This document shows, one piece after another, positions 44,588 to 63,025 of a DNA stretch of 64,000 nt (its first letter is position 1; every line of letters starts with the position of its first letter). Below the pieces are notes generated by a model that was not told where the DNA came from, made no database searches, and saw only the letters and a list, made by a program, of their open reading frames with translations. Origin of the DNA: Roseospira marina (lineage in GTDB: Bacteria; Pseudomonadota; Alphaproteobacteria; Rhodospirillales; Rhodospirillaceae); the NCBI RefSeq assembly GCF_014197855.1, contig NZ_JACIGJ010000004.1, positions 124,001 through 188,000 on the forward strand, written 5' to 3'. The translations under genes were made by a program, and so were the position numbers.

Positions 44588-46801
44588 ATGAGCATCAACC
44601 TGGCCCTCAGTTCGGCGCTCAGCGGATTGAAGACCAACCAGAAAGCCCTGGATCTGGTCTCGCGCAATATCGCGAACGTCAACACGCCCGGCTACACGAA
44701 GAAGATCTTCAACCAGGAAAGTGTCGTCCTGGCTGGGGTCGGCTCAGGTGTGCAGGTCAGTGAGATCCAGCGCCGCGTCGATTATGGCTTGATCGACGAG
44801 TTGAATCGCGAGAACGCCCAGCTTGAGAAGCTGTCGGTCAAATCCCAATTCTTCGACCAGATGCAGAATCTGTTCGGGAAACCCGCCGACAACAACTCCA
44901 TTGCGCACATTATGGAGACCCTCGCCGGCGAAGTGGAAATGCTCGCGCTCGACCCGGACAAGACCGAGCAGCATATGACGGTCGTGCAGCGGGCCCAGGA
45001 TGTAAGCCACAAGCTGAACAGCATGGGCGACCATTTGCAGCAGCTTCGCCTTGATGCCGACCAGGACATCCAGCGGTCCGTGCAGCGCGTGAACACGCTG
45101 TTGGAGGACATCAACGACCTCAATAAGGAGATCGCCTACACCATCGCGACCTCGCGGGACAGCACCGACCTGACGGACAAGCGCGATATGGCGGTCGCGG
45201 AGTTGCAGTCGCTGATGAATGTCACGGTCTTCACGCGGGACTCCGGGGAACTCACAGTCTACACCGAGGGCGGCGACATTCTGGTCGACCGCGAGGTGAA
45301 GCAGGTGTCGTACTCCCCCCGTTCGTCGTACTCGGCGTGGACCACGAAGGGCGGCAACGACGTTCAGGGCATCACGGTCAATGGCCACGACATCACGGAG
45401 GACATCACCGACGGCCGGATTTCGGCGCTGATCGAGATGCGGGATTCGATCCTGCCCAACTATCAGGCGCAGCTCGACGAGTTGTCCCAGGAACTGCGCG
45501 ACACCGTCAACGCGGTCAACAACCGGGGCACCAGTTTTCCCAACCTGGCCACCGAATTCGTCGGGACGCGGACGTTCCTGGATTCCGCCGCCCAGACCAT
45601 GCAGCTTGATGCCGATCACGACACCGTGGTCGCGCTGTTCGACGGCGACGGCAATCAGGTGGCGCAGACCACGATGAAGGACATCGTGAACCTGATCGGG
45701 GGCGGCGATCTGGAAACCCCGACCACGATCGACGATGTGGCGGCCGCCCTGCAAACCTGGCTGCAATCCGGCAGTGGCGCCACCCCGCCCGGACCGGGCT
45801 TGGGGTCGGCCACCGTGAGCGTGAACAGCGACGGCGTGCTGGATATCAAGCTGAACGACAACAGCGTCGGCCTTGCCTTCAAGGATGTGAACACCACTGC
45901 CGGCACGGATCCCGCCTCCTGGACGGCCGAGGACGCTTCCGTGACGTTCGACGCGGACGCCGATGGCAACGGGGATATTACGCACGCCGGCTTCTCGTCG
46001 TTCTTCGGTCTCAACGACGTGTTCACCGATGGTGGCCGGGCCGAGTGGGCCTGGGATTCCGGCATCAAGTCGGAGACGTGGCGGCCATTCTCCGGCGGCA
46101 CTTTGAACTTCAGCAATGCGTCCGGTTTGGTCGTCGATAGCCTGACCCTAACCGGCACCGAGACCGTTGAGGAGATCGCCGCCGCCATCAATTCGGACCC
46201 CGGCCTGAAAGGGTTTCTGGAGGCCGAGGTGGTGCCGGAGGGCGAGGGCGTGCGGTTGCGCATCAAGCAGCGTGATGGCAGCGACCTGATGGTGACCCAG
46301 GCCGGGGGCGGCACGGGGCTGATGGATTCTCTCGGCCTGAAGCCCAGCAGTGCCGGCTTGGCGAATGCGGTGTCGGTGAAAAAAGAGATCGCCGACAACC
46401 CGTCTTTGCTCTCGCGCGGCGCCGTGCTCTACAACAGCGATACGAAGGAGTACACTGTCAGCTCCGGCGACAACAGCACGGCCAACGCCATGGCGGAGGC
46501 CCTGCGCGCGGGACGATCGTTCGACAGTGCCGGGGGGCAGGTGTCCACCAACAGCACGTTGAGCGACTACGCCGCGCTTCTGCTATCGCAAAACGCCAGC
46601 GCGGCGCGCGCGAATGAGACCAAGCTGGACTATCAGGTGAGCCTCGTGGATTCGCTGAGTCTGAAGAACGCGGAGATCAGCGCCGTGAACCTGGATGAAG
46701 AACTCGCGGAACTGATTGTGTACCAACAGAGCTATGCCGCGTCGGCCAAGGTCATATCGACCGTGTCCGACTTGTTCGATATTCTGAACAGCATCGTCTA
46801 A
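44588..46801 (+). CDS. flgK: Flagellar hook-associated protein FlgK
   Basis: 737 residues, at the long end for FlgK. The N-terminal D0 helix is diagnostic: MSINLALSSALSGLKTNQKA, LDLVSRNIANVNTPGYTKKI. The C-terminal D0 helix is SLKNAEISAVNLDEELAELI then VYQQSYAASAKVISTVSDLF. Acidic, Gly/Asp-rich middle domains (about 330-560) are exposed at the hook-filament junction. It is exported by the FlhA gate with help from the FlgN-like chaperone upstream. Confidence 0.97.
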   Translation: MSINLALSSALSGLKTNQKALDLVSRNIANVNTPGYTKKIFNQESVVLAGVGSGVQVSEIQRRVDYGLIDELNRENAQLEKLSVKSQFFDQMQNLFGKPADNNSIAHIMETLAGEVEMLALDPDKTEQHMTVVQRAQDVSHKLNSMGDHLQQLRLDADQDIQRSVQRVNTLLEDINDLNKEIAYTIATSRDSTDLTDKRDMAVAELQSLMNVTVFTRDSGELTVYTEGGDILVDREVKQVSYSPRSSYSAWTTKGGNDVQGITVNGHDITEDITDGRISALIEMRDSILPNYQAQLDELSQELRDTVNAVNNRGTSFPNLATEFVGTRTFLDSAAQTMQLDADHDTVVALFDGDGNQVAQTTMKDIVNLIGGGDLETPTTIDDVAAALQTWLQSGSGATPPGPGLGSATVSVNSDGVLDIKLNDNSVGLAFKDVNTTAGTDPASWTAEDASVTFDADADGNGDITHAGFSSFFGLNDVFTDGGRAEWAWDSGIKSETWRPFSGGTLNFSNASGLVVDSLTLTGTETVEEIAAAINSDPGLKGFLEAEVVPEGEGVRLRIKQRDGSDLMVTQAGGGTGLMDSLGLKPSSAGLANAVSVKKEIADNPSLLSRGAVLYNSDTKEYTVSSGDNSTANAMAEALRAGRSFDSAGGQVSTNSTLSDYAALLLSQNASAARANETKLDYQVSLVDSLSLKNAEISAVNLDEELAELIVYQQSYAASAKVISTVSDLFDILNSIV

Positions 46802-46895
46802 ATCGTCCGGCACCGGCCGGGCGACGACCGGGATCCGGCGCAGAAGGCGCCAGCCGCCGTACGAGGCGGCGCGGAGAATGGCAGGAGTGACCGCT

Positions 46896-48407
46896 ATGAC
46901 CACACCCATCAGCACTCGGGTCGGAACCTTCGCGCAGAGGAGTTCGATGATCCAGCAGATGATGAGGCTGCAATCCCGGCTCTACGATAGTCAGTTGCAG
47001 GTCGCGACCGGGCAACGCTCCCAGACGTACACCGGGATTTCGACGGACAGCTTCCGTCTGGTCAGCGTTGAGACGGAAAAGACCAAGGTCGAGTACTACC
47101 AGAAAAGCAATGCGATTGCGCAGGTTCGCCTGGATACCATGGCGACCTCGGTCAATTCGATTCAGGACGTGCTGCACAACGTGTACAACGACCTGATCGA
47201 TCTCGGGGCAGGCGATCAGAACCAGATCATCGACGAGGCTGAGGCCGACACCCTGAGCAATATTCAGAAGTTTGCCTTCTCCGCCATGAAGGATCTGGCA
47301 TCCTATCTGAACGCCAAGGCGGACGGGCGGTATGTGTTTTCCGGTGGCCGCACGGACCAGCGCGCCGTGGACTTTCCCTATACGACCCTGGAGGAGTTCC
47401 AGGCCGCCTACGATGGGTCCGACATTACCTACCCGACCTCTCGTGAGGCCAATGTGCCGGATGCGAAGATCGGGCAGGATCAGCATGGGGGCCTGACCTA
47501 CGGCCCCGGCGCCAACACTATCACGCCCGCGACGGCCGCCAGCACCGAGGCGCTGGTGCCCGGGACGGTGATCGAGTTGACTGATGGCGACATCACGACC
47601 CAGCGCTTCACCGTGACGGCGCGCGATACGGGGACCGGGGCGCTGACGGTCACGCCGGCCCCCTCCGGTCTGCCGGGCGCCGCCAGCGACGCGACCATCT
47701 CCGCCGTGTCGTATTATGGCGGCGACAGTCTGACGTTCGAGCATCGGGTGAGCGACGAGCGGACGCTGGATTTGGGGCTTAACGCGAAGGACGGCGCATT
47801 TGAAAAGGCCTTCCGCGCGTTGGGCATGCTGGCGCAGGGCGGCTTGAATGCGGCCGCCACGACGACGCCGGCCGCATCCACCGGGACGTTGACCTTTAAC
47901 AACGCCAACGGAACCGTGACCGCCGCGACACCGGGATCGTTCTCGGGCTTGCCGATCGGCAGTTCGATCACGTTCACGGGCACCGCGAACAACGACGGTC
48001 AGCGGTACACCATCGTGTCGAACGATGGGGACACCCTCACACTGGACCCGCCCCCCGTGAACGAAGGCGCCGTGGCGGCGGACGCGGTCACGGACAATCT
48101 GGGCCGCATTGAAGAGGCCATGGCGCTGTTGAGCGACGCCACAAACCACACGTCCGCCATGCCGTCCGAGGATCCGAGCGACATAGAGCAGGTCGGGAGC
48201 CTCATCGGCTTCAATCAGGTGACGCTGGACCGCGCGATCGATGAGGCGAAAACCTTCGCGAGCTATCTCAGCATCCGTCAGACGGAGATCGAAAGCGTCG
48301 ACAAGCTGGAAGCCGCGGCGAACCTCAACAACGATGCCCTGGCGTTGGAGACGGCCATGGCCAGTTTCGCGCGGATCAGCGAAGTCTCCTTGCTGTCGTA
48401 CATTTAG
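46896..48407 (+). CDS. flgL: Flagellar hook-associated protein FlgL
   Basis: 503 residues from ATG 46896, chosen over ATG 46878 because GGAG lies 9 nt before it. FlgL is the second junction protein between hook and filament. N-terminal flagellin-like helix: MTTPISTRVGTFAQRSSMIQ, QMMRLQSRLYDSQLQVATGQ; C-terminal helix ETAMASFARISEVSLLSYI. At about 500 residues it is roughly 200 longer than typical FlgL; the extra Thr/Gly/Ala-rich material lies near 195-400 and should be surface exposed. Confidence 0.93.
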   Translation: MTTPISTRVGTFAQRSSMIQQMMRLQSRLYDSQLQVATGQRSQTYTGISTDSFRLVSVETEKTKVEYYQKSNAIAQVRLDTMATSVNSIQDVLHNVYNDLIDLGAGDQNQIIDEAEADTLSNIQKFAFSAMKDLASYLNAKADGRYVFSGGRTDQRAVDFPYTTLEEFQAAYDGSDITYPTSREANVPDAKIGQDQHGGLTYGPGANTITPATAASTEALVPGTVIELTDGDITTQRFTVTARDTGTGALTVTPAPSGLPGAASDATISAVSYYGGDSLTFEHRVSDERTLDLGLNAKDGAFEKAFRALGMLAQGGLNAAATTTPAASTGTLTFNNANGTVTAATPGSFSGLPIGSSITFTGTANNDGQRYTIVSNDGDTLTLDPPPVNEGAVAADAVTDNLGRIEEAMALLSDATNHTSAMPSEDPSDIEQVGSLIGFNQVTLDRAIDEAKTFASYLSIRQTEIESVDKLEAAANLNNDALALETAMASFARISEVSLLSYI

Positions 48408-51583: not shown

Positions 51584-51695
51584 GTCCGAGCGTACACGGA
51601 TCCTGCGACGGATCCGGGTCGATTAGGGATGACCGTAGGGGGGCGAACCCTGTGCGTGCCGCCTGTCTCTGCGGATGAGCCGCCGCGAATGATAC

Positions 51696-51738
51696 GACAA
51701 AGCCGCCGGCCCCGGACCACGGGAGCGGCGGCTTTGTC
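51696..51738. terminator. Bidirectional terminator-like hairpin between divK and rpmG
   Basis: GACAAAGCCGCC (51696-51707) and GGCGGCTTTGTC (51727-51738) are perfect 12-bp complements around a 19-nt loop. It sits between the convergent ends of divK (stop 51583) and rpmG (stop 51845). The TTTGTC end on one strand and its mirror on the other suit a bidirectional terminator; the T-run is short. A smaller CGGATCC/GGATCCG hairpin lies nearer divK at 51597-51615. Confidence 0.6.
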
Positions 51739-51844
51739 GAGACACACGATCGCTGCATCACGGTCTCTCCGGACACACCAACCCGCCAGCCGAGATCACA
51801 AGCCCGGCTGGACGGGGATCGGCGGACGATCCGGTGGCGGAGTG

Positions 51845-52012
51845 CTACTTCAGCTTCGTTTCCTTGAAGACGACGTGCTTGCGCGCCTTCGGATCGTACT
51901 TGCGGAACTCAAGCTTTTCGGTCGTCTTGCGCGGGTTCTTCTTGGCCACGTAGAAGTAGCCCGTGCCTTCGGTGCTTTCCAGCTTGACCTGGATGGTTGC
52001 CGGCTTCGCCAT
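51845..52012 (-). CDS. rpmG: 50S ribosomal protein L33
   Basis: 55 residues, too short to stand out by length. The translation matches alphaproteobacterial L33 end to end: [55 protein letters not shown]. Cysteine-free form, as expected in alphaproteobacteria. L33 sits near the exit site of the large ribosomal subunit. Own promoter at 52055-52082. Converges with divK through a hairpin. Confidence 0.97.
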
Positions 52013-52054
52013 GGGTCACAGTCCCAATGCCTGGAGGATCAAAATGAGCCGCGC

Positions 52055-52082
52055 ACCTTAGCGACCCAGCGCGGGAAGTCAA
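52055..52082 (-). promoter_or_regulatory. Promoter of rpmG
   Basis: On the minus strand: -35 TTGACT (52082-52077), 16-bp spacer, -10 TAAGGT (52060-52055). It gives a leader of about 35-40 nt to ATG 52012, where GGAGG (in TCCTCC's complement region near 52031-52036) is also seen. Strong -35, average -10. Confidence 0.6.
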
Positions 52083-52198
52083 GGACTCGTTTGGGAGCGA
52101 TCTGGGCCGGTATCCTTGGCGGCCGGGAGGCAAACCGTCGCGATCACGTCGGTCGAGACGCCGCCCGCCACCTCGTCGCGCCGTCATGGGGGGATTCT

Positions 52199-53602
52199 TT
52201 GACCGATCGGGCCGAGACGCGATCTACGACGCGATTCACCATGGGGGCCGTCCCGGGCGGCGCTGGCGGCGGAGTCCTGGCGGCCCTGTGTCTTCTTCTG
52301 CTGGTGTGGGCGCCGCTGCCGCTGGCCAGCAACCGCCCCTGGTCTGCGGCGCTGCTGGCGCTTGGGCTGTTCGGGCTCGCGGCCTTGGTTGGAGCGGTGG
52401 GAGAGGCGCGGCGGATGATCCCGGCGGATCGGCCGGCACGGCTGGCGGCGGTCCTGGCCAGGGCCGTGCTGCTCTGGGCCGTGGTGCAGGCGTTGCCCGG
52501 CCTGGGTGCGTCTCGACCGGTCTGGGAGGGGTTCGAAACCCTGACCGGGCGCGCGCCCTGGGGCTCGCTGTCGGAAACGCCCGTGGCAACGGCGGAGGGC
52601 GCGCTGCGGCTGGCGGCGTATCTGACGGCGGCGGGGCTTGGCGCCGCCCTGCTGAGCGATGACGCCGTCGGGCGACGGGCTGTGCGGGCGTTGGCGCTGT
52701 GGATCACGGTTTTGTCCGTCTACGCCCTGGCCGATCTGGCGACCGGGTCCTATCGCATCGGCTGGATCGACAAGTGGATCTATCAGGACGTCGCCACCGG
52801 CCCGTTCGTGAATCGCAATGCGTGGTGCGTCTATGCGGGCATTGGCGCGGCGGCGGCCCTGCTGGCCTCCGGCATGGCATCCGGGCCGCGCGGCCGGTGG
52901 CTGTGGCGGGGCGCGGGCGTGGTCTGTCTGGCGGGGGCCCTGTTCAGCGAGTCGCGCTGGGGGCTGGTATCGGTCGCGGCGGGCCTTTCGGCGCTGGGGC
53001 TGGTGCGTCCGGGCCGTCCGCCCTGGCGCCACCTGACGGTGGGGGCGCTGGTTCTGGCTGTCGCGCCGCTGGGGCTGGTGGCCACGGGACGCGCCCGGTT
53101 CCTGGACCGCCTCGATCCGGCCTATGTGGTGGGGGATCTGCGCTGGGACCTGTACCGGGTGACGCTGGAGGCGGTGCAGGCCGCGCCCTGGACCGGCTAT
53201 GGCCTGGGCAGCTTTCCAGTGCTGTTCCACCACATCCGGGACGCAACGCTGGCCGAGGCGCTGGTGTTCCAGGCCCATTCGGTGCCGTTGGAGCTGATGG
53301 CGGAGCTGGGCGTTCCGGCCGCGCTGGGGCTGATGGCGGCCTATGGCTTGCTGGTGGTGCGGGCGGCGTGGGTGGCGCGCTGCACCGGGGCGCCGATGGC
53401 GCGGCTGGGAGCCGCGGCCGGGATCATGGCGGGGGGGCACGCGCTGCTGGATTTCTCCCTGCAAACGCCGGCGCTCGCGGTCACCGTTCTGGCATGCCTG
53501 GGGGCTGCTGGTCCCCTCCCGTCCGCCCCTGGGTGCGCCAGCGCGCCCGCGCCGTCGCCAGGGCCGGCACCTCGGGCGCCAACGCCTGTCCCCGCGCCAT
53601 GA
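52199..53602 (+). CDS. O-antigen ligase/polymerase-like membrane protein
   Basis: 467 residues from TTG 52199 (GGGGGGA just upstream); ATG 52241 is the alternative. About ten to twelve membrane helices, with the Wzy_C/WaaL-like periplasmic loop region: TGPFVNRNAWCVYAGIGAAA, FSESRWGLVSVAAGLSAL, APWTGYGLGSFPVLFHHI, and VFQAHSVPLELMAELGVPAA (the conserved HxxxLE-like histidine). Such enzymes join or polymerise lipid-linked glycans on the periplasmic side. The Pro/Ala/Ser-rich C-terminal tail overlaps the end of the convergent small gene by 122 nt. It fits the neighbouring glycan operon. Confidence 0.82.
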   Translation: MTDRAETRSTTRFTMGAVPGGAGGGVLAALCLLLLVWAPLPLASNRPWSAALLALGLFGLAALVGAVGEARRMIPADRPARLAAVLARAVLLWAVVQALPGLGASRPVWEGFETLTGRAPWGSLSETPVATAEGALRLAAYLTAAGLGAALLSDDAVGRRAVRALALWITVLSVYALADLATGSYRIGWIDKWIYQDVATGPFVNRNAWCVYAGIGAAAALLASGMASGPRGRWLWRGAGVVCLAGALFSESRWGLVSVAAGLSALGLVRPGRPPWRHLTVGALVLAVAPLGLVATGRARFLDRLDPAYVVGDLRWDLYRVTLEAVQAAPWTGYGLGSFPVLFHHIRDATLAEALVFQAHSVPLELMAELGVPAALGLMAAYGLLVVRAAWVARCTGAPMARLGAAAGIMAGGHALLDFSLQTPALAVTVLACLGAAGPLPSAPGCASAPAPSPGPAPRAPTPVPAP

Positions 53603-53873
53603 GGCGATCGACATAGGCGGGCGGGGCGCCGCGCAGGGCCTCGGTCCACGCAAGACCGGTCCAGGCGAACGGATCGCCGGGGGAGTGTGCCAGAACCTCG
53701 CGCCATGCCGTTGCGGCGCCATGCAGGCGGTTGGGGTCGGCCTCCGCCACGGCTGCGGCAAAGGCGGCCTCCGCCTGTCCCGCCGGGTCGGGCACCCAGA
53801 GCGCGCGCGCCAGAGTCAACGCGGCCAGGGTGGCGAGCGCGGTGAACAGGGCGGTCGGAAGCCACCGGGTCAT
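53481..53873 (-). CDS. Small membrane-anchored hypothetical protein
   Basis: 130 residues. An N-terminal membrane helix (WLPTALFTALATLAALTLAR) is followed by a helical, TPR-like soluble segment (AEADPNRLHGAATAWREVLA, PGDPFAWTGLAWTEALRG). It is the last gene of the minus-strand glycan operon: its ATG overlaps the tandem glycosyltransferase stop by 4 nt. Its 3' 122 nt overlap the convergent O-antigen-ligase-like gene. Function unknown; a TPR-like periplasmic scaffold is a guess. Confidence 0.6.
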   Translation of the reverse strand: MTRWLPTALFTALATLAALTLARALWVPDPAGQAEAAFAAAVAEADPNRLHGAATAWREVLAHSPGDPFAWTGLAWTEALRGAPPAYVDRLMARGQALAPEVPALATARARWRTQGRTGGDQQPPGMPER

Positions 53874-56620
53874 CGCGGGGCCTCCAGGAGCGCGCGCAGA
53901 GCCGCAGCATAGGCGCTTACCATCGCGGCATACCGGGCGGCGGTGTCATCCGGCGGTCCAGCGGGAGGCGTCGCATCAAGGGCGCGGCTGATCGCCCGGG
54001 CCAGGGTCGGGGGATCGCCCGGCGGCACAAGCCAGGTGTGCGGCCAATGGGCGGCCTGCTCCGGGATGCCGCCAACGATGGTCGCGACCAGCGGCACACC
54101 GGCGCGGCGTGCCTCCAGCACCGCGCGGGGCGCAGCCTCGGCATGGCTGGGACAGACCGCGAGATTGGCGGTGGCCCACAGCGCGGCCATATCGTCCCTC
54201 TCGCCCAACAGGGAAACACGATCGCGCAGGGGATCGGGCAGGGCGGCGATGGCCCGCCGGACGCGGTGGCCGTAGCCGTCCCCATCGCGGCCGGCCCACA
54301 GCACACGGACGCGGGCCTGCAGGCCGTCCGGCAACAGAGGCAGCGCGGCGACGAGGTCGAGCGGCCCCTTGCGCGGGCACAGGGCGCCCGCCGCCATCAG
54401 AATCCGTTCGTTCGTGGGGGGACGCGGTTCCCAGGCGGTGGACGGAACGGCGTTCGGGATCACGGCCGACCGGTCGGGGGGAACGTGCGCCGCCCAGGCG
54501 GCGTGCGTGGCGTGGGACACGAACACCAGGCGATCCGCACGCCCGAACGCGGCCCACGCTCGGGCCTGCAACGCCAATGCGTGGTCGGCCAGGGCCTCCG
54601 GTCCCGGTTCGCGGAGGATCCAGAGGCTTGCAAGGCCGGCACGCGCGGCGGCCTCGACCCCCGCAAAGGCGCGCAGGCCGTTGACGATCACCACGTCCGG
54701 GGCGGCCTCCATCAGCGCGCGGGCGAGCCGGTCCACGTGCCGCTCCAGATGGGCGGCCGTCAGCGGGCGGCCGGGATCCACGATCCGGAGCGGTGTCCCC
54801 GCGTTCGCCCACACTTTCCGCACCGGACCATCACGGAACGCCAGACCAAGGACTGGTGTCGCGTGACCGGCGTCGGTCAGACCCCGCGTCAGCTCCCACA
54901 GGCTGAGGGGGGCGCCGTCCCGCGCCAGGGTCTCGCCGATCCAGGCCAGTCGCGGCGGGCGGTTCGCTGCGGCCCGTGGCCGCGCCGTCGGTCGCGAGGG
55001 TGCGGGCGGTGCAGGGACGGCCGGAGGGTCCATGCGTCGGCCCAAGCGGTGTGCGATCTCCCGGGCCTCACCGAGGGTGATCAGCCGCGCCACGGTCACG
55101 AGACTCCGAGCGAGGCCCGCCGGGTGCCGCCGTATGGTGCGGGCGTGCGCTCGTGCTTCGTCCGGCGCGCGAGGCGGGGTGTCGTACAGGCGTTCGTGCC
55201 GGGCCACCAGCGCGGGCACGCTAAACCGTGCGGCGTGGGCACGGCCCGCGTTCGCCGCCTGTGTCCACGCCGAAGGATTGGTCAGCAGCCCGAGGACCCG
55301 ATCCGCCAGCGCGTCGGGATCTGGGGTGGACAGGGACCCTGCCGGAAGCGCCTCCGCCGTGCCGCCCGCATCGCAGGCCACCACCGGAACGCCCGTCGCC
55401 TGGGCCTCCAGCACCGCATTGGGCAAGCCTTCCGCGCGGGAGACATGGAGCAGTATGGCGGCTTCCGTCCGATGGGACGCGACGTCCGGCGCCCAGCCGG
55501 GGAGTTCAACATCCACCCCCAGCGCGCGAGCCTGAGCCGCAACCGCGTCCCTCAGCGGGCCGTCCCCGAGAATCCGAAACCGCGCCGTCGGGCTACGGGC
55601 ACGGATGCGCGCCGCGACCGCCAGCCACAGCAGCGGGCGCTTGTGCGGCACAAGGCGGAACACTCCCAGCACCAACGGCCGGGCGCAATCCAATGCTGGG
55701 CGCGGTGGCGGGAGGCGGACGCCGTTGGGAATCACCGTGGGCGGGGCGATCCCGGCCCAGCGCTGGTGATCCGTCGCCACGGCGCGGGCGTTCGCGGTCA
55801 CGGTCACCGCCGGATGCCGGGCCAGCGCGGCGAGGCCGGGCCGCAGCGCGTCCGCCAGCGGATGGCCGAGCGCATCCGGGGCTTGGTTGCGCAGGCCGAC
55901 CACGACCCGGGGCACGCCGAGCACCGCCGCCGCTGCGCCCCCGACAACGGCGGTTGTGTCCAGCCACGCATGCACCACCCGCGGCTTCAACACCGCGAGC
56001 CACCCGGCGACGCTTAGCAGGTCGCCGGCAACGGCGTCGGGCAGGCCGTCGGTCGCCCGCTCCAATGCGGCGAGGGCGGGAACGGTCTCGGCGGGCGGGG
56101 TGGTCCACACGTCGACTGGTACCCCCAAGCGTGCCAGATCGGGAACCAACGCGGCGGCGTCCGGGCGGTCGTCGCGATGCTTGACCAGAACTCGCACCGG
56201 CCACCCACGCGCGACCAGCCCGGCCGTCAGCATGAGCATCTGCCGTTCCGCGCCGTTCCCGGCCAGAGTCGGCAGCACCATAACCACCGGGCCATCGGCG
56301 CGGCCCTGGACGGGCAGGACCGTCGCCAGCACGCGTCGCCATGCGCGGGTCGCGGCTCCGGGCAAATGGGTCCGTAGGCGCCGGACCCCTCGTGCGCGGA
56401 TCAACGCGAGCGGGGATGCCTCGTGCCACGTTCCGCCCGCGTCCCGCACCGCGATGGCGGAAACCCCCTGGCGCCACGCGGCCCAGAGCACCGACAGCGT
56501 GATCGACCGCGCCCCACCCGGAGCCGCCAGTCGGTCGCCGGCGGGCAGAGTCAGGCGCCAATCGCGCGCGTCCCCCGGCGCGTGGCGGATGTCCGTTCCG
56601 ATGACCGCCGTCTTTGTCAC
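53870..56620 (-). CDS. Tandem GT4 glycosyltransferase fusion
   Basis: 916 residues from GTG 56620, which overlaps the preceding stop (GTGA); a longer frame exists but runs through the GT2 gene. Two GT-B GT4 units lie in one chain. The first (about 110-480) starts VVMVLPTLAGNGAERQMLML and has the donor-site EGLPNAVLEAQATGVPVVAC (Glu397). The second (about 555-910) starts LAWIGETLARDGAPLSLWEL and has AEAAPRAVLEARRAGVPLVA. A Pro-rich linker lies near 530-550. Each half is about the length of a single GT4, so two successive sugar transfers by one protein are likely. Residues 1-100 match nothing I know. Confidence 0.87.
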   Translation of the reverse strand: MTKTAVIGTDIRHAPGDARDWRLTLPAGDRLAAPGGARSITLSVLWAAWRQGVSAIAVRDAGGTWHEASPLALIRARGVRRLRTHLPGAATRAWRRVLATVLPVQGRADGPVVMVLPTLAGNGAERQMLMLTAGLVARGWPVRVLVKHRDDRPDAAALVPDLARLGVPVDVWTTPPAETVPALAALERATDGLPDAVAGDLLSVAGWLAVLKPRVVHAWLDTTAVVGGAAAAVLGVPRVVVGLRNQAPDALGHPLADALRPGLAALARHPAVTVTANARAVATDHQRWAGIAPPTVIPNGVRLPPPRPALDCARPLVLGVFRLVPHKRPLLWLAVAARIRARSPTARFRILGDGPLRDAVAAQARALGVDVELPGWAPDVASHRTEAAILLHVSRAEGLPNAVLEAQATGVPVVACDAGGTAEALPAGSLSTPDPDALADRVLGLLTNPSAWTQAANAGRAHAARFSVPALVARHERLYDTPPRAPDEARAHARTIRRHPAGLARSLVTVARLITLGEAREIAHRLGRRMDPPAVPAPPAPSRPTARPRAAANRPPRLAWIGETLARDGAPLSLWELTRGLTDAGHATPVLGLAFRDGPVRKVWANAGTPLRIVDPGRPLTAAHLERHVDRLARALMEAAPDVVIVNGLRAFAGVEAAARAGLASLWILREPGPEALADHALALQARAWAAFGRADRLVFVSHATHAAWAAHVPPDRSAVIPNAVPSTAWEPRPPTNERILMAAGALCPRKGPLDLVAALPLLPDGLQARVRVLWAGRDGDGYGHRVRRAIAALPDPLRDRVSLLGERDDMAALWATANLAVCPSHAEAAPRAVLEARRAGVPLVATIVGGIPEQAAHWPHTWLVPPGDPPTLARAISRALDATPPAGPPDDTAARYAAMVSAYAAALRALLEAPR

Positions 56621-57660
56621 GCGGGCCGCACCCGGTCGCGCCGGGGAGCGCGTATCCTGTCCGGTCGCGGGGCGCGACGGGCGAATCGGCGCGGATCCCA
56701 CGTCAGGGCGCGGGCCACGCGCCACCACGGTGCCGTGCGGGCACGCTGGATCACCCGCCGCTGGCGCCACGCACCCGGCAGTCCCCGCAGGCCATCGCGC
56801 AAGCCCTTCAAGTCGATGGCCAGCCGCCCGCACCGGGCCGCGCGCAGCAGCAACAGACCGATCACCGCCAGCAACCCCGGCGCCAGCAGCCACACAAGCG
56901 GCCCGGGCGTGTTCTTGACGAAGAACCACAGCCGGTTCCGGCTGGTGTGGTAGCGGATGAAGTCGCTGTCCTGGCCGTTGGTGGCGGAGCCGACATGCAG
57001 CACCTGGGCGGAGGGCACGAACACCACCGGGCCTCCGCGCAGCCGCAGCCGATAGGACAGGTCCGTGTCGTCCAGGTAACAGAAGAACCCGCCGTCGAAG
57101 CCCCCCACGGCATCCCAGGCAGCGCGACGGTACAGGGCGGCGGCGGCGCAGGCGGCGAAGCACTCGCCCTCCACCAGGGCATCGGCGGGCGGTACGGGTT
57201 GCCAAATGCCGCCGCGCCAGACCAGCCCGACCGGCGCTGCCTCGTCGCCCAGGCCGTCGCACAGGGTGGGATCAGCGGCGTCGCGTTGCAGGCTGGCGAA
57301 GGCGGCCGCGTCCGGGTGCCGTCCGGCCGCCGCGCGCAGCGCGGCCAGCCAGTCCGGGGCGGGAAAGGCATCCGGGTTCAGCGTCGCCACGAACGGCGGC
57401 GGCGGGTGCGTTTCGACCGTGTGATCGGCGCCCACGTTGTTCGCGGCCGAATAGCCGATGTTTGCCGGCAGCCGCACCACACGCACGCGGGGATCGTCGG
57501 GCAGGGCCGCGTCGAGCACCGCCGGATCGCTGCCGTTGCCGACCACCACGGCCTCCCACGCCGGGTCGGTCTGGGCGCGCAGGGACTCCAGGCATTGGGC
57601 CAGCAGCGGCCCCTCGTTCATCGTCACGATCACCACACGGACCCAAGGCTGCGCGATCAT
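56617..57660 (-). CDS. GT2-family glycosyltransferase
   Basis: 347 residues from ATG 57660, overlapping the radical SAM stop by 4 nt. N-terminal GT-A fold: RVVIVTMNEGPLLAQCLESL, then NIGYSAANNVGA and a DxD-like TLNPDAFPAPDWL (donor/metal site). Then GGFDGGFFCYLDDTDLSYRL, the family's second catalytic block. A hydrophobic segment (PLVWLLAPGLLAVIGLLLLR) near residues 265-285 and a basic C-terminus suggest it sits at the inner membrane. Rhamnosyltransferase-like GT2 enzymes share these blocks; the sugar is not predictable. Confidence 0.9.
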   Translation of the reverse strand: MIAQPWVRVVIVTMNEGPLLAQCLESLRAQTDPAWEAVVVGNGSDPAVLDAALPDDPRVRVVRLPANIGYSAANNVGADHTVETHPPPPFVATLNPDAFPAPDWLAALRAAAGRHPDAAAFASLQRDAADPTLCDGLGDEAAPVGLVWRGGIWQPVPPADALVEGECFAACAAAALYRRAAWDAVGGFDGGFFCYLDDTDLSYRLRLRGGPVVFVPSAQVLHVGSATNGQDSDFIRYHTSRNRLWFFVKNTPGPLVWLLAPGLLAVIGLLLLRAARCGRLAIDLKGLRDGLRGLPGAWRQRRVIQRARTAPWWRVARALTWDPRRFARRAPRPDRIRAPRRDRVRPA

Positions 57661-58517
57661 GAATCCGTCTCCAGCGGGGTGAAGCGGGCGAAGGTCCGGT
57701 CGCAGGCCTCGGTGCAGGCGGTTTCGCAGCGCCGAGGACCATCCAGCCAGTCGAACGAGCCGTCGAACAGGTTGCCCAGCCACAGCGGGTCGCGGGAGCA
57801 TCGGTGCGCGTTGCCCCTGGGGTCGATGTGGCAATAGGCCATGCCCGCGTCGCACATTTTGGCGCCGTTGTCGGCGTGGGCCTCCTGCCCGGCGGCGTCG
57901 CTGCTCATGGGCACGCCGAGCGCTCTCAGCCGCGCCAGATCCGCCGCCGTGTAGGTGGACCCGGCGTCCCCGACCGGCCGGTTGAGGTACTGGGCCCGAG
58001 CGTCGAGTCCCAGCGCGGTGAGGCGCTCTATCCAGTCCGGCAGGGCGTCGATCCAACGCGGGTCGGCGACGATGGTGCAGGCAAGGCGCGGCCGTTGGTC
58101 CTCTCGGCGGTGGAACAAGGCCAACAGGCGGGCTGCCCGCGCAGCGAACGCATCGAAGTCCGTGTGATCGGGGTGAAACGAGAGGGTCACGTACTCGAAC
58201 CGCGCCCACACCCCCGGCGGCCATCGGTCCGGGGCGCGCCACAGGTTGGTGGTCATGCGCAGGGGCGCCGGGTAGCCCAGGACGAACTCCGCGAACCCCT
58301 TCAGAACCGTGGGTTCGCCGCCCGCGATGTGCACCAGGGGTGCGCCGATGCCGATCAGGGCGTCGCGCCACGCGGCCAGCGTGTGCTCCCCGCGCTGGCG
58401 GGTCTTGGCCTTGATGCGGCAGTAGGGGCAGTCATAGTTGCACAGCAGCGACGGCAGGATGATCGCCAGCCGCGTCTGGCCGAGCCCCGGGCCGATGTCC
58501 GCCACCGGCCGGCTCAT
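57657..58517 (-). CDS. Radical SAM protein with extra C-terminal cysteines
   Basis: 286 residues from ATG 58517, overlapping the upstream stop. The cluster motif CxxxCxxC is CNYDCPYC (Cys26, 30, 33), and the GGE motif is in HIAGGEPTVLKG (66-69). A second set of cysteines lies at 222, 229, 240, 264, 268 and 272 (CDAGMAYC, HRCSRD, CETACTEAC), like a SPASM/twitch auxiliary-cluster domain. It may modify a glycan, lipid carrier or a neighbouring protein through radical chemistry. The substrate is unknown. Co-translation with glycosyltransferases and the giant methyltransferase protein is the main clue. Confidence 0.85.
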   Translation of the reverse strand: MSRPVADIGPGLGQTRLAIILPSLLCNYDCPYCRIKAKTRQRGEHTLAAWRDALIGIGAPLVHIAGGEPTVLKGFAEFVLGYPAPLRMTTNLWRAPDRWPPGVWARFEYVTLSFHPDHTDFDAFAARAARLLALFHRREDQRPRLACTIVADPRWIDALPDWIERLTALGLDARAQYLNRPVGDAGSTYTAADLARLRALGVPMSSDAAGQEAHADNGAKMCDAGMAYCHIDPRGNAHRCSRDPLWLGNLFDGSFDWLDGPRRCETACTEACDRTFARFTPLETDS

Positions 58518-61500
58518 GCGCCCGTCTCCCGCCGCAGGACGGCGGTGTGCCAGTCGGTGCCGAGCAGGCGGAAGCCCGGTGTGGCGGCCGCCTCCTCCCA
58601 CACGAATGGGGCCACATCGGGCCACGCCGGCGCGCCGGCGTCGTCGATCAGCGCCAGCCCGCCCGGCCGCAGCAGCGGGGCATAGGCGTGCCAGTCCTCC
58701 GTCAGCCCGGCGCGGTCGTGGCGTCCGTCCAGCACCAGCAGCCCCAAGCCCTCCCGTCCGGCCCACCGGCGCGCGCGGGCTAGCGCCAGAGGATGCTCGC
58801 TGGGCCGCCGTACCAGAGTGACGGCGCGGCGGGGCACGCCGCAGCGGGCCAGCGTCGCCCGCACCCTCGCCGGCGTCACCGCCGCGCCGGTGATGGGGTC
58901 GTCCGGGGCGCCGTAGCTGCCGCCGTCGAGGGGATCCAGGCCGAGCAGCCGCGCCCGCCGGCCCTGGTCCGCCACACCCTCCGCCAGCACCGCCAGCCCG
59001 AGCCCGAACAGGACGCCCACTTCCAGCGCACGCAGGTCGGGTCCACCGGGGGCTGCCCGTGCCGCCAGTGCTCGCAGGATCGCCGCCGGCAGCGTGCAGG
59101 CGAGGCGCCCGCCGGCCCGGTCCTCCAACGCGAGCAGCCGATCCGCCAGATACCCCAGCGCGCGGGGGGGCCGATCCGGAAGCCCCAGAGCCGGCAGCCA
59201 GGTGTCCCGCAGGTGGTCCAGGTCGGTGTCGGTCACGGTGCGGGAGAACGGCCGGAACCGCGCGGCGTCGATCACGCCGGAGCGGTCCAGCGCCGTCCGC
59301 GTCGCGTCCACCTGGGCCCGCAGGGTGGACAGCGCGGCCGTGTACCGCTGGCGTTCCTCCAGCCGGGTCGTGCGCTCGCGGGTCTCGGCCTCGCGCGTCA
59401 GGTCCGCGCGCAGCGTGGCCAGAGTCTTTGTTATCCGGTCGGTGAGATCGGCGAGCGTGTCGGTGAGGGTGTCGCTCTCTCGCTCCAAGGCGCCGACGCG
59501 TCCGTCCGTCTCGCCCATTCGGTCGTTGGTGGCGCCCAGGGCCGAGACCATCGCCGCGCGCAGGCGCTCTTGTCGGCGGGTCAACGCCGCCTCCATATGG
59601 CGGTCGGCCTCCTCGCGGGCGCGGGTCTCGGCGGCCCGTGCGCGGTCCTGGGCGGCGGCGGTGGCGGTGACCTCCGCGCGGGCCTCCACGCGGGTCGCCG
59701 CGATGGCCTCCGACAGCCGGCCGTCGAGCCCGGCCATGTCGTCACGCAGCCAACCCACGTGGCGCTTGAACTTCACCTCCTGCGCGCGCTGGGCCGCGTG
59801 CCGGTCGAGCGTGTCCAGCCGCCGGGCGCGCACATGCCCGTAGGCGACGAACCCCAGCAACCCCGCCACGGTCAAGGCGGAGAGGGCGGACGCAACGGGC
59901 GGCGTGGTCTGCGGCACCAGCGCGCCCGCACCGACGAGTCCGAGCGCGACCGGCGCCCGCCAGCCGCCTAGCACCGCCCCCATCGCGCCGGCCAGCCGCA
60001 GGCCGCGCCGCCACGGGGGATCGGGCGGTGGTGTCGAGACCGCCATGGGACGTGGCGCGGGCGGCGGGGACGGAGTCGGATCGGGGTCGGCCGGCGCGCT
60101 CTCGGTCTCATCGGCCCGCAGACGCCACGAGAGGGCCGCGCGCACCATGCCGGCCAGCGCGTCGTCGTCGGGCAGGCCTTCCTCCGGCAGAACACCGATC
60201 AGATTGCCCCAACCCTCGGCGTCCGGCAGCGGGTCGGCGTCGCCGGGCGGCCAGGGAATCAGCCGACGCCAGTCGTGCCGGATGCCATAGCGGACCACCG
60301 GGTGCCACTCGCTGATGAACACGCGGTAGCCGCGCCCCTCCAGCAGCGCCGCCAGATCGCCCATGGACCAGCCGAGCGGCAGTGTCTTCCGGTTCTCGTA
60401 CTCGGCCATCACGACGCGGGGGCGCCAACGGCTCCAGTCCAGTCCCAGCAGGACGCGGGAATCCCAGCCCTCCGCGTCTACCTTGAGCACGTCCACGGTC
60501 GCGATGTCGTGCCGGTCCAGGATGTCGGTCAGGGTGGTGACCGGCACCCGGGCGCTCTCCCGGTGGCTGTCCAGGAACGGGGCGAGGGTGGCAACGCCCG
60601 TGCTCTCCGGCGCGGTGTACAGCGCGGCGGCGTCGGCGGGGGTATCGGACAGCGCGGCGGCCTCGATGGTTATCGTCGGGTCGTCCGCCACCGCCGCCAT
60701 CAGGGCGGCGCGGTTGTCCGGTTCCGGTTCCACCGCCAGAACGGACCAGCCGGTGGCGCGGAAGGGCGCCAGGAACCCGCCCCGGTGGGCGCCCACGTCC
60801 ACCAATCGTCCCGGCGTGGTGGTCTGATGCCGGGCGAGGGCCAGCACCAGGGCGGCCTCGTCCAGGTGGGCGCCGTCCGACCGGGGATGATCGGCCGACA
60901 GCACCCGTCGGCCCGATCCGGCCGCCGCTTCCCGCACCCAGGCCAGACACCGCGCCTGCCGTGGCGCCAACGGATAGGCGGCGAGAGCGTGCGCGCCTCC
61001 GGCTGCGCCCCGGCGGGCGAGGGCGGCGGGATCCCCCACCAGCCGGCGCAGGGCGGCGCGCAGGGCCTCGGGATCGCGCGCCGTGACCGTCTCCGCCGCG
61101 CCGGACTCCGCCAAGGCCTGAACCGTGGCCTGATCCGCCGGCCCGTAGGCCAGGATCGCCGCCCCTGCCGCCAGGGCTTCGGGCAGCGTGTTGGCGAGGG
61201 AATAGCGGGTGTAGGCGCGGCTGTCGTCGTCGAAGGCATAGGCGATGAGGATCGCGTCGGCCGCCCGCAGGCGCGCGCGATACGCCGTCGGGTCCGCGCT
61301 GTCGGCGCGGGTGGCCGTCACACCGGCCCGATCATGGGCCAGATCGTCCGCCGCCTCGATCCAGGGGGGCAGCACCCGCATTTCAAACCGGATCCAGGGC
61401 CGCGCGGCGGCGCGGTTCAGGGCGTCCACCGCCTCCACGACATCGGCCACGGCGGCGCGGTTCATGTCCTCGGCCAGCGCCCCCACGTACAGCAGATCCA

Positions 61501-63025
61501 ATGGGCGTTGGGTCGGGACCCCGGCGCCGGGCGGCACGGCGCGGGCGGGCCAGTCCTCCGGGGCGATGCCGTTGGCGAGGGCCTGCCACGGGCCGCCGCC
61601 ATAGCGGGCCTCCATCGCCGTCGCCATGGCCTCCCCGATCGCGAGACGGACGGCCGCGCGCCGGGCCAACCAGCCGAGATCGTGGCTCCAAACCTCATGC
61701 GCGCGCGACTGGGTGCGTGCCAGCAGCGCCGGCCAGTCGTCCATCAGGTGCAGGATCAGCGGGGCCGCGAGGGTCTCGATCAGCGTGCGCGCCAGTGGAT
61801 GCAGGTGGCCGCGCGTCGGCTGCGGGCGGTAGTACACCGCCTCCGGCGCGAAGGCGCGGGCATGCGCCGCGGCCGCGTCGGCACTCAGGCCGGGATCGGT
61901 CCGGCCGTCCGGGTGATGAACGGAAAAGCGGTCCGGGGTGCCGTCGGGCGTGATGGCCATGGCGCGCCCGCCCCGCCACGGTGCCATCAGGGTGGCCTTG
62001 AGTTGGCCCGTCGCGGACAGGCTCCCGACGGCCGTCAGGTCCAGAACCAGCAGCCGGGGCGGCAGGTGCGTGGGCTCTGATCCAAGGACCGTATCGAGCG
62101 GCACGCGCGGCACACAGTCCAGGCGGCCGCCCGGCGTCGCGTTGAGCAGCCGCGCGCCCATGCCGCCCAGCGCATCGCGGGCCGCCGCGAAGGCGCGGCC
62201 CATGTTCTCCACCTGCGGGTCGTGCCAACGGTAGCCCTTGCCGAAGTAGTCCGGGTGGAAGTGGTTGGGATCGTCGCTGGCCATGTCCAGCACGCCCGGC
62301 CCCGTCTCGGCCTCGGTGCGGGTGACGTCGTCCGGCAGGGCGTAGTCCAGGTCCACGCCCAGCAGCACGACCTCCCGCGCGCCCAGATACACGGCCAGTT
62401 GGATGGCGGTGAAGGCCACGGTGCAGCCGGCATAGGTGCGGGCCAGCGCGTCCAGCGAGACGTCGAAGCGGTCGGGCCAGCCGGGACGCGGCCGGTGGTC
62501 GAACCACACCACCTCCGGCCCGTCGTCCAGGGCATAGGCGAGAGTGATCGGGAACAGCCGGGTGATGCCGGCGGGCAGGGTGTTGAGCGCCTCGGCGCGG
62601 TCCTCCGCGACCAGATGATCCTCGACCACATAATACGTCGGTCGGAAGCGCGTGGTCGGAAACGCGAGGAACAGCCCGTTGACCCCGATGGTGGGCTGCC
62701 CGGCCAGCCGGTCCAGGTCGATCCGACCGAGGCTCGGTCCGTTGCCGAGCACGAACAGGCGCTCCCCTTTGTGGCGGTCGCGCAGGGCGGCGAGCCGGGG
62801 CCGGTGTTCGGCCTGCCAGAGCCCGTCGTACAGGGCCGTCACACGACGCAGGCCGGCGACCCGGGCGGCCGGCGGTATGCGATCGGTCGGTCGAAAGATC
62901 GGCGCCCGGAGGTCGGCCGGAAGCCGGGCGATGAGTCCGGCTTCCTCGCGCTCCGCGTTCTCGTGGCTCTGGGTCTCCGGTTCTGCCACCGGATCCCGTT
63001 CGATCGCGACGACCGCTTGTATCAT
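58514..63025 (-). CDS. Giant multi-module DUF115/glycosyltransferase/double methyltransferase protein
   Basis: 1,503 residues from ATG 63025. Modules in order: about 65-310, a DUF115-like region (RLFVLGNGPSLGRIDLDRLA; CTVAFTAIQLAVYLGAREVV); about 325-700, a GT-B glycosyltransferase-like region (LDLLYVGALAEDMNRAAVAD; YSLANTLPEALAAGAAILAY); about 735-945, an FkbM methyltransferase (LVDVGAHRGG; VLKVDAEGWDSRVLLGLD); a Pro-rich linker (970-1005); two membrane helices (about 1012-1065); a coiled coil (1065-1250); and a class I methyltransferase-like end (1330-1500, LRALEVGVLFGLG; LVLDGRHDRAGLTEDWHAY). It heads the operon. Each piece is recognisable, but the combination is unusual. DUF115 proteins include flagellin-glycosylation and sialyltransferase-like members (known). 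Confidence 0.8.
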   Translation of the reverse strand: MIQAVVAIERDPVAEPETQSHENAEREEAGLIARLPADLRAPIFRPTDRIPPAARVAGLRRVTALYDGLWQAEHRPRLAALRDRHKGERLFVLGNGPSLGRIDLDRLAGQPTIGVNGLFLAFPTTRFRPTYYVVEDHLVAEDRAEALNTLPAGITRLFPITLAYALDDGPEVVWFDHRPRPGWPDRFDVSLDALARTYAGCTVAFTAIQLAVYLGAREVVLLGVDLDYALPDDVTRTEAETGPGVLDMASDDPNHFHPDYFGKGYRWHDPQVENMGRAFAAARDALGGMGARLLNATPGGRLDCVPRVPLDTVLGSEPTHLPPRLLVLDLTAVGSLSATGQLKATLMAPWRGGRAMAITPDGTPDRFSVHHPDGRTDPGLSADAAAAHARAFAPEAVYYRPQPTRGHLHPLARTLIETLAAPLILHLMDDWPALLARTQSRAHEVWSHDLGWLARRAAVRLAIGEAMATAMEARYGGGPWQALANGIAPEDWPARAVPPGAGVPTQRPLDLLYVGALAEDMNRAAVADVVEAVDALNRAAARPWIRFEMRVLPPWIEAADDLAHDRAGVTATRADSADPTAYRARLRAADAILIAYAFDDDSRAYTRYSLANTLPEALAAGAAILAYGPADQATVQALAESGAAETVTARDPEALRAALRRLVGDPAALARRGAAGGAHALAAYPLAPRQARCLAWVREAAAGSGRRVLSADHPRSDGAHLDEAALVLALARHQTTTPGRLVDVGAHRGGFLAPFRATGWSVLAVEPEPDNRAALMAAVADDPTITIEAAALSDTPADAAALYTAPESTGVATLAPFLDSHRESARVPVTTLTDILDRHDIATVDVLKVDAEGWDSRVLLGLDWSRWRPRVVMAEYENRKTLPLGWSMGDLAALLEGRGYRVFISEWHPVVRYGIRHDWRRLIPWPPGDADPLPDAEGWGNLIGVLPEEGLPDDDALAGMVRAALSWRLRADETESAPADPDPTPSPPPAPRPMAVSTPPPDPPWRRGLRLAGAMGAVLGGWRAPVALGLVGAGALVPQTTPPVASALSALTVAGLLGFVAYGHVRARRLDTLDRHAAQRAQEVKFKRHVGWLRDDMAGLDGRLSEAIAATRVEARAEVTATAAAQDRARAAETRAREEADRHMEAALTRRQERLRAAMVSALGATNDRMGETDGRVGALERESDTLTDTLADLTDRITKTLATLRADLTREAETRERTTRLEERQRYTAALSTLRAQVDATRTALDRSGVIDAARFRPFSRTVTDTDLDHLRDTWLPALGLPDRPPRALGYLADRLLALEDRAGGRLACTLPAAILRALAARAAPGGPDLRALEVGVLFGLGLAVLAEGVADQGRRARLLGLDPLDGGSYGAPDDPITGAAVTPARVRATLARCGVPRRAVTLVRRPSEHPLALARARRWAGREGLGLLVLDGRHDRAGLTEDWHAYAPLLRPGGLALIDDAGAPAWPDVAPFVWEEAAATPGFRLLGTDWHTAVLRRETGA

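Follow-up and report, generated by a model that had tools for sequence, protein, structure and literature searches.

A transferase-methyltransferase fusion protein of Roseospira marina that may act as a membrane-anchored glycan ruler-terminator of reversed polarity

What might a bacterium do with a single polypeptide that carries putative sugar transferases at one end, a methyltransferase at the other, and a predicted membrane hairpin and a long coil between them? This question is raised by an open reading frame (ORF) in a 64,000-nucleotide stretch of Roseospira marina DNA, hereafter called the window. The explanation that we somewhat favor is a glycan polymerase-terminator, anchored in the membrane, whose coiled coil serves as an internal ruler. 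It would depend on an ATP-binding cassette (ABC) exporter of the Wzm/Wzt kind, and would work like WbdD and WbbB with its modules in the reverse order. The ORF is single and complete, with an ATG start and no internal stops, and its parts are listed here from the N to the C terminus.

58514-63025, minus strand: whole ORF, 1503 residues, DUF115-glycosyltransferase (GT)-FkbM-linker-transmembrane (TM) hairpin-coil-sugar O-methyltransferase
62051-62848, minus strand: DUF115/MptE-like module, residues 60-325 (Pfam 26.7 bits, below cut-off; profile A3 against the PDB)
60911-62050, minus strand: GT-B glycosyltransferase module, GT4-like, residues 326-705 (AlphaFold2 model, Foldseek, profile search)
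60146-60883, minus strand: FkbM-family S-adenosylmethionine (SAM) methyltransferase, residues 715-960 (PF05050 2.4e-19; TIGR01444 2.3e-20)
59975-60145, minus strand: Pro-rich, low-confidence linker, residues 961-1017 (sequence; blocks of predicted local distance difference test score [pLDDT] 37-49 over the model's first 40 residues)
59840-59974, minus strand: predicted TM hairpin, residues 1018-1062, both ends predicted to be cytoplasmic (from hydropathy and numbers of charged residues across 11 fused proteins)
59258-59839, minus strand: coil of 194 residues (1063-1256) that prolongs TM helix 2 in the model and is proposed to act as a molecular ruler
58517-59257, minus strand: FRPFSR motif and C-terminal sugar O-methyltransferase (MeT1/SpnH/MycF-like), residues 1257-1503; proposed chain terminator (Methyltransf_24, A5, Foldseek, profile)

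This list and order of modules had been proposed by a first-pass annotation made from the letters of the DNA, and Pfam and the structure models bear it out. The same annotation allowed for a frameshift or for two separate genes. The ORF is intact and is no frameshift artefact, since the six genomes of the Roseospira/Rhodospira group (hereafter the genus) share the protein at nearly full length. Profile searches of the window copy agree with the annotation for the two methyltransferases: PF05050 (Methyltransf_21/FkbM) covers residues 743-902 (2.4e-19, 70.6 bits against a cut-off of 22.7), and PF13578 (Methyltransf_24) covers residues 1334-1462 (8.6e-12, 46.3 bits against 26.3). They agree less well for the transferases. 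PF01973 (MptE-like/DUF115) matches residues 78-228 at 5.4e-6 and 26.7 bits, under its curated cut-off of 34.6, and no glycosyltransferase family matched in the Pfam scan. DUF115 is also below cut-off in L009 (28.6 bits), the single further copy from the genus that was scanned, and above it in 10 of 10 non-genus homologues scanned (L027, L028, L029, L030, L031, L032, L033, L034, L038, and L041). Searched against PDB sequences, the full protein gave a sole match (E 0.055), located in the coil region. FkbM profile A4 found no methyltransferase there and gave one match, to TrkA (0.046).

The glycosyltransferase module was assigned by structure and profile, Pfam being silent. An AlphaFold2 model of residues 55-965 was built from 24 aligned sequences and has a mean pLDDT of 86.3. 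Its leading Foldseek matches are enzymes of the GT4 type. The top two are MshA (3c48, 2.4e-11) and ManT (7qsg, 3.0e-11), both with poor superposition (root-mean-square deviations of 12.7 and 14.4). The best fit among the 50 matches listed is BshA (5d01_B, 5.5e-9, target TM-score 0.72). A profile of 11 homologues also matches ManT 7qsg (8.4e-5), in its C-terminal half only. Judged from the model, the chain from the end of DUF115 to the start of FkbM forms a GT-B enzyme resembling family GT4.

The DUF115 profile A3 matches 1ro8, the GT42 sialyltransferase Cst-II, at 6.3e-4 for the whole sequence, its best single stretch being weak (i-Evalue 0.26), and the match runs through GNGPSL. The same profile matches Maf (5mu5) at E 0.013. 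These similarities offer a lead: the module may be remote kin of the GT42 sialyltransferases and Maf, and thus a putative transferase using a cytidine monophosphate (CMP)-sugar. Genes for CTP_transf_3 proteins were found in three of three loci tested (L028, L029, and L041) and agree with a CMP-sugar donor. NeuB was considered as a further link between such a donor and this DUF115 and was dropped; the NeuB of this genome sits with Maf on another contig, C5.

The C-terminal half can be characterized more closely. The first ten Foldseek matches of its model are MeT1 (6g80, 4.2e-11, and 6g7d), SpnH, and MycF entries, all of them sugar O-methyltransferases. The TDP-rhamnose 3'-O-methyltransferase CalS11 follows at rank 12, and later ranks include unrelated O-methyltransferases. 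Profile A5 agrees, matching MeT1 (6g7d, 3.2e-5) and MycE (3.8e-5) in the PDB. Its third match, to a designed TIM barrel at 1.1e-4, looks like chance and gauges the level of the 3.2e-5 match. Four residues of the A5 alignment (D179, H182, D207, and D208) are invariant in 11 sequences and may resemble the residues that bind Mg2+ in MycF. The hydroxyl that MeT1 methylates is the 1-OH of oligomannosides (PMC9883506). The earlier suggestion that one polypeptide may make, transfer, and cap a sugar with methyl groups fits the modules as regards transfer and capping but is unsupported as regards making, since the Pfam scan of the window copy found no module that produces a sugar nucleotide.

How is the protein placed relative to the membrane? 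In the window copy, two hydrophobic 19-residue stretches (1018-1036 and 1044-1062) have mean Kyte-Doolittle values of 1.37 and 1.85 and are separated by an uncharged loop of seven residues. The usual hydropathy threshold for such stretches is 1.6, and the first of the two lies below it. In 11 fused proteins, a scan that returns a best pair for any sequence places two hydrophobic stretches 2-12 residues apart directly after the linker; a coil of 177-256 residues, the motif, and the methyltransferase follow. Across these proteins, lysine and arginine occupy 48 of 220 positions on the N-terminal side of the hairpin, 49 of 220 on its C-terminal side, and 3 of 78 within the loop. A two-helix hairpin is predicted to insert in the membrane. 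Because two adjacent hydrophobic helices would bring the chain back, and because the flanks are rich in lysine and arginine relative to the loop, both halves of the protein should lie in the cytoplasm. The annotation had also considered halves on opposite sides of the membrane, an option disfavored by the adjacency of the helices and by the same charge counts (97 of 440 in the flanks against 3 of 78).

The coil follows the predicted hairpin and precedes the methyltransferase in all 11 fused proteins. In the window copy it comprises 194 residues without a proline. A model of the C-terminal half (11 sequences, mean pLDDT 74.2) extends TM helix 2 as one helix through residues 1042-1191, with block pLDDT values of 52-82. 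Coil length ranges from 177 to 231 residues among the six genus members, where coil identity is 0.55 and the gap fraction 0.23. The catalytic modules of the same proteins have identities of 0.69-0.83 and gap fractions of 0.00-0.01 (borders set by hand in both cases). Two close relatives, L025 and L026, have coils that are 0.71 identical and differ by one gap of 53 residues and one of three. No clear pattern of multiples of seven was seen by eye in the coil gaps between genus members. Internal repeats, as might arise from in-frame duplication, were seen by eye in the coil of L027 (ORF residues ~1696-1890) and in a 392-residue ORF of L127.

The genes for an exporter lie near this gene in several genomes. 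By Pfam, an ABC-2 permease and an ABC ATPase are close to it in L028, L033, and L041, and an ATPase in L029; the permeases of L028 and L029 share 57% identity. The Wzt of L046 is 40% identical to the genus Wzt over 427 residues. In these five loci, the exporter genes are at least 39 bases (L028) and at most 5.1 kb (L041) away. The Pfam Wzt_C match exceeds its cut-off in L033 and falls short of it in L029 and L041; L028 has none. At their C termini, these Wzt proteins have a domain that forms a sequence subtype of its own (A8): in a BLAST comparison of the A8-type Wzt of the genus with the window genome's other Wzt, encoded on contig C20, only the ATPase parts align.

A profile of seven such C-terminal domains was used to follow the subtype. 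At E 0.01 it matches 12 of 13 family-holding genomes, five of which are not in the profile (G000, G001, G005, G805, and G807), and of these only G805 and G807 lie outside the genus. It also matches the ordinary Wzt of G001, weakly (7.4e-7). Among 60 relatives and at E 1e-10, the subtype is present in six of six genus genomes and in none of the 54 others, which are without the fused protein. Together with the short distances in the five non-genus loci, this distribution gives the polymerase-terminator proposal its chief support. The window genome has an A8-type Wzt/Wzm pair at the edge of contig C18 (75% and 65% identical to the G004 pair), so the genus owns a matching exporter, albeit outside the operon. 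A permease on contig C8, picked from PF01061 alone, proved to be a different one; Wzm was located beside Wzt on C18. In G805 (Hellea), the A8-type Wzt lies at the edge of a different contig from the gene. The coil had been called a hinge. Because it is placed between the transferases and a distal methyltransferase, and because a Wzt subtype is paired with the protein, we infer that it is probably more than that, and that it points to control of chain length.

Proteins of this kind are rare and scattered: of 385 genomes of the class, only the window's own has the C-terminal module with its F..F.R motif, and of 398 genomes of the phylum, three (own included) have the GT module. Among 60 genomes searched (own included), 10 match the protein anywhere and six at nearly full length. 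These six are the genus genomes, and the other five copies are 64-73% identical to that in the window. A collection of named genomes contains 116 stretches encoding a relative; 79 loci were kept, and counts among them are lower bounds. The nearest named relatives among the matches listed are Roseospira navarrensis, Rhodospira trueperi, and Roseospira visakhapatnamensis, of the order Rhodospirillales. All four enzyme modules stand in one ORF in at least 10 loci (10 of the 79 kept), five of them from the genus. The others among those listed are from a filamentous cyanobacterium (L027), Hellea of the Robiginitomaculaceae (L038), and three Hyphomonadaceae: a metagenome-assembled genome (MAG, L028), Henriciella (L029), and Hyphomonas (L033).

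The order of modules, which the annotation had proposed to compare in related genomes, is kept in six of six genus genomes and recurs outside the genus, mostly with additional modules. L027 and L033 have a second DUF115, and L038 has a weak one between GT and FkbM; additional N-terminal transferases are a GT2 in L029 and L033 and a GT4 in L028. Partial orders among the loci kept include DUF115-GT (at least seven), DUF115-GT-FkbM (at least three, of which L030 runs off its contig), and GT-FkbM (at least three); among the loci listed, GT-FkbM-DUF115 occurs in L041 and FkbM-DUF115 in L085. A Pseudomonadales MAG (L031:7947-12548) has DUF115-GT-FkbM followed, where the coil and methyltransferase would stand, by a C-terminal region that weakly matches a sulfotransferase. 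Split forms also occur. In a Nitrospirae MAG (L041), Methyltransf_24 is in a separate 392-residue ORF directly after the GT-FkbM-DUF115 ORF, and in an alphaproteobacterial MAG (L046) it is in a 511-residue ORF, one GT4 gene away from GT-FkbM. The coil in both split ORFs was judged by eye.

The gene belongs to an operon whose other members, with the convergent gene at its far end, are as follows.

57657-58514, minus strand: radical SAM-like protein, next operon gene (PF04055 28.7 bits, cut-off 29.5; 5/5 other genus loci)
56617-57660, minus strand: GT2 glycosyltransferase (PF00535 9.3e-20; 5/5 genus loci)
53870-57262, minus strand: tandem GT4-GT4 protein (PF13692 3.3e-46, two stretches; 5/5 genus loci)
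53481-53873, minus strand: small TPR-like protein (PF13428 0.011, below cut-off; 5/5 genus loci)
51629-53602, plus strand: convergent Wzy_C-type O-antigen ligase/polymerase, at the operon's far end (PF04932 9.2e-14; 6/6 genus genomes)

The true start of the GT4-GT4 protein is probably near ORF residue 215, the first ~214 residues overlapping the GT2 gene and not being translated, and the real start of the Wzy_C protein probably lies downstream of its ORF start as well. The radical SAM-like protein has a Cys-rich C-terminal stretch that is SPASM-like by eye. FlgK/FlgL-like flagellar genes, likewise recognized by eye, occupy window positions 44588-48407 on the plus strand, ~10 kb from the first gene of the glycan operon. 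Elsewhere in the same genome (L130, C5:28001-46000) are genes for NeuB and Maf (PF20157+PF01973), with CMP-sugar synthetase-like and flagellin-like genes, the latter two by eye; this region of C5 is probably a flagellin glycosylation locus.

If the protein is indeed a polymerase-terminator, then its parts could act in sequence. The computation supports the modules and their order, the predicted hairpin, the long helix, the conservation, the fused and split forms, and the co-occurrence with an exporter subtype; the activities, sugar donors, chain identity, ruler role, and cap reading in the following scheme are inferred. The DUF115 and GT-B modules, aided by the GT2 and GT4-GT4 proteins of the operon, would lengthen a chain carried on a lipid at the cytoplasmic side of the membrane, and FkbM would O-methylate sugars within that chain. 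The two-helix hairpin would anchor the protein so that its N and C termini both face the cytoplasm, and the coil, spanning at most ~29 nm if its 194 residues form one straight helix, would keep the C-terminal methyltransferase off the membrane. A chain long enough to reach this methyltransferase would be methylated at its free end, and growth would stop. The exporter would then take the capped chain, whose cap would be read by the C-terminal domain of Wzt.

Several observations weigh against this proposal. Both hydrophobic stretches reach 1.6 in just 7 of the 11 fused proteins, and the scan would return a best pair regardless. Hydrophobic periodicity over the whole coil, counting Ala, is weak in the window copy, where 175 of 500 shuffles reach its score; at most 5 of 500 do so in 5 of the 11 proteins. 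A windowed test (63 residues, without Ala), picked after the whole-coil test had come out weak, beats 100 of 100 shuffles in 10 of the 11 proteins, including that of the window (0 of 100 reach its score); the exception is L027 (15 of 100). Divergence of the kind seen in the coil extends to the linker (identity 0.60, gaps 0.21) and the hairpin (0.53, 0.14), so it indicates free change of length and not a ruler as such. In L041, DUF115 comes after the hairpin and the coil-methyltransferase ORF is without a hydrophobic stretch of at least 1.5, and the corresponding ORF of L046 has a single such stretch before the coil and no pair. As for the exporter, 7 of the 12 A8-positive genomes supplied the profile, the cyanobacterial holder G801 has no A8 match at E 0.01, and co-occurrence within one genus is one evolutionary event. 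The Wzm/Wzt genes of the genus lie outside the operon (in the window genome, the exporter on contig C18 and the gene on contig C4). A Wzy_C gene closes the operon in all six genus genomes, which could mean a route of the Wzy type.

This last point leads to an explanation that we regard as improbable, though the best of the alternatives: the protein might be a scaffolded enzyme that builds and methylates a short repeat unit, which a periplasmic Wzy_C protein would polymerize or ligate, the coil serving only to multimerize it or to position the second methyltransferase. The invariant Wzy_C gene favors such a route, as do an operon that contains no Wzm/Wzt and the flippase-like PF13440 matches in all six genus genomes, above cut-off in five. 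However, each of these genomes carries 3-6 Wzy_C matches, and a Wzy_C-type protein may equally be the ligase needed by an ABC-exported O-chain. The gene also sits with Wzm/Wzt in the Hyphomonadaceae and Nitrospirae loci, and the paired Wzt subtype separates the six genus genomes from the 54 relatives.

The free shuffling of modules in relatives (DUF115-GT only, GT-FkbM only, and the weak sulfotransferase of L031) would suit a modular decorator. DUF115 and GT-B would then add a side sugar, the methyltransferases would act at different positions, the hairpin and coil would be a tether, and the backbone polymerase would be elsewhere, for example the tandem GT4-GT4 protein of the same operon. A coil whose divergence is matched by that of linker and hairpin fits this idea, which is nonetheless slightly less probable still: it leaves unexplained why a coil of 177-256 residues is kept between hairpin and methyltransferase in 11 fused proteins, and why the protein is coupled to one Wzt subtype. 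Very unlikely is a role in the glycosylation of flagellin or another protein, with DUF115 acting as a Maf-like transferase beside the window's flagellar genes. Maf has DUF115 as its core domain, in keeping with the 5mu5 match, and the FlgK/FlgL-like genes are ~10 kb away, but a separate Maf accompanies NeuB on contig C5, near CMP-sugar synthetase-like and flagellin-like genes, and the genes conserved alongside this one in the operon encode GT2, GT4-GT4, radical SAM-like, and Wzy_C proteins.

Returning to the polymerase-terminator proposal, the window genome itself supplies a protein for comparison. On contig C20, next to genes for a Wzm, Wzt, ManB, and ManC of its own, lies a 1137-residue ORF (L129:10475-13885) with Methyltransf_24 (132-248), a coil-like stretch at ~300-406 (by eye and periodicity, without a shuffle control), GT2, and GT4; a near-full-length relative occurs in G003. 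This protein is a candidate ruler-terminator of canonical polarity. Like the window protein, it joins Methyltransf_24, a coil-like stretch, and glycosyltransferases in one chain. It differs in that the methyltransferase is N-terminal and its Wzt resembles the A8 type only in the ATPase part. WbdD, WbbB, and O7 ORF6 share its polarity, with the terminator at the N terminus (PMC11231755).

Should the window protein and its relatives be regarded as a class? The arguments seem to us evenly balanced for a separate class of reversed-polarity ruler-terminators, each with a hairpin-anchored polymerase, an internal methylase, a coil, and a methyl-cap terminator, and each coupled to its own Wzt domain except in the cyanobacterium, with both polarities present in one genome. 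As part of the same joint reading, and held with the same even confidence, this class would span Rhodospirillales, Hyphomonadaceae, Hellea, and a cyanobacterium, and would be split in Nitrospirae and an alphaproteobacterial MAG. Likeness in working to the known rulers of the WbdD/WbbB type is better supported than membership among them: the coil and the distal methyltransferase agree with theirs as a layout, but the N-terminal position of the terminator is not shared. Among titles found in the open-licence literature on rulers, chain termination, and Wzt, none named a reversed-polarity case, and nothing relevant turned up in that literature joining DUF115 and FkbM.

Control of surface-glycan length by coiled-coil rulers is known best from enterobacterial prototypes of one polarity. 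If the proposal is true, a fused, hairpin-anchored form of the opposite polarity would imply that geometry alone matters, with the membrane at one end and the terminator at the other. Natural variants of coil length, such as the 53-residue step between L025 and L026, and the paired exporter domain make both the ruler and cap recognition testable beyond the enterics.

The closest known systems are WbbB of Klebsiella pneumoniae O12 and O7 ORF6. As described in PMC11231755, these combine polymerizing transferases, a coil, and a far-end terminator in one chain, as is proposed here, and serve an ABC-transporter-dependent glycan. Their chains begin with the terminator and end with the polymerase, whereas the window protein has the reverse arrangement, a MeT1/TylF-like putative terminator, additional FkbM and DUF115 modules, and a predicted two-helix hairpin as its anchor. 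In WbdD of Escherichia coli O9a and K. pneumoniae O3 and O5, a coiled coil likewise parts a methyltransferase terminator from the membrane side, according to the same paper. The catalytic sites of WbdD are N-terminal, an amphipathic helix lies at its C terminus, and WbdA is recruited noncovalently, whereas the polymerase-like modules are fused here and the Pfam scan of the window copy found no kinase module. The enzymes of mycobacterial methylmannose polysaccharide provide a third comparison, as MeT1 ranks first among the Foldseek matches of the C-terminal half and ManT (7qsg) ranks second for the N-terminal half. These are separate enzymes, and MeT1 acts on a free 1-OH (PMC9883506), a group not expected on a lipid-linked chain. 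Because its polarity is reversed and its anchor is different, the window protein would represent a known type in a novel form.

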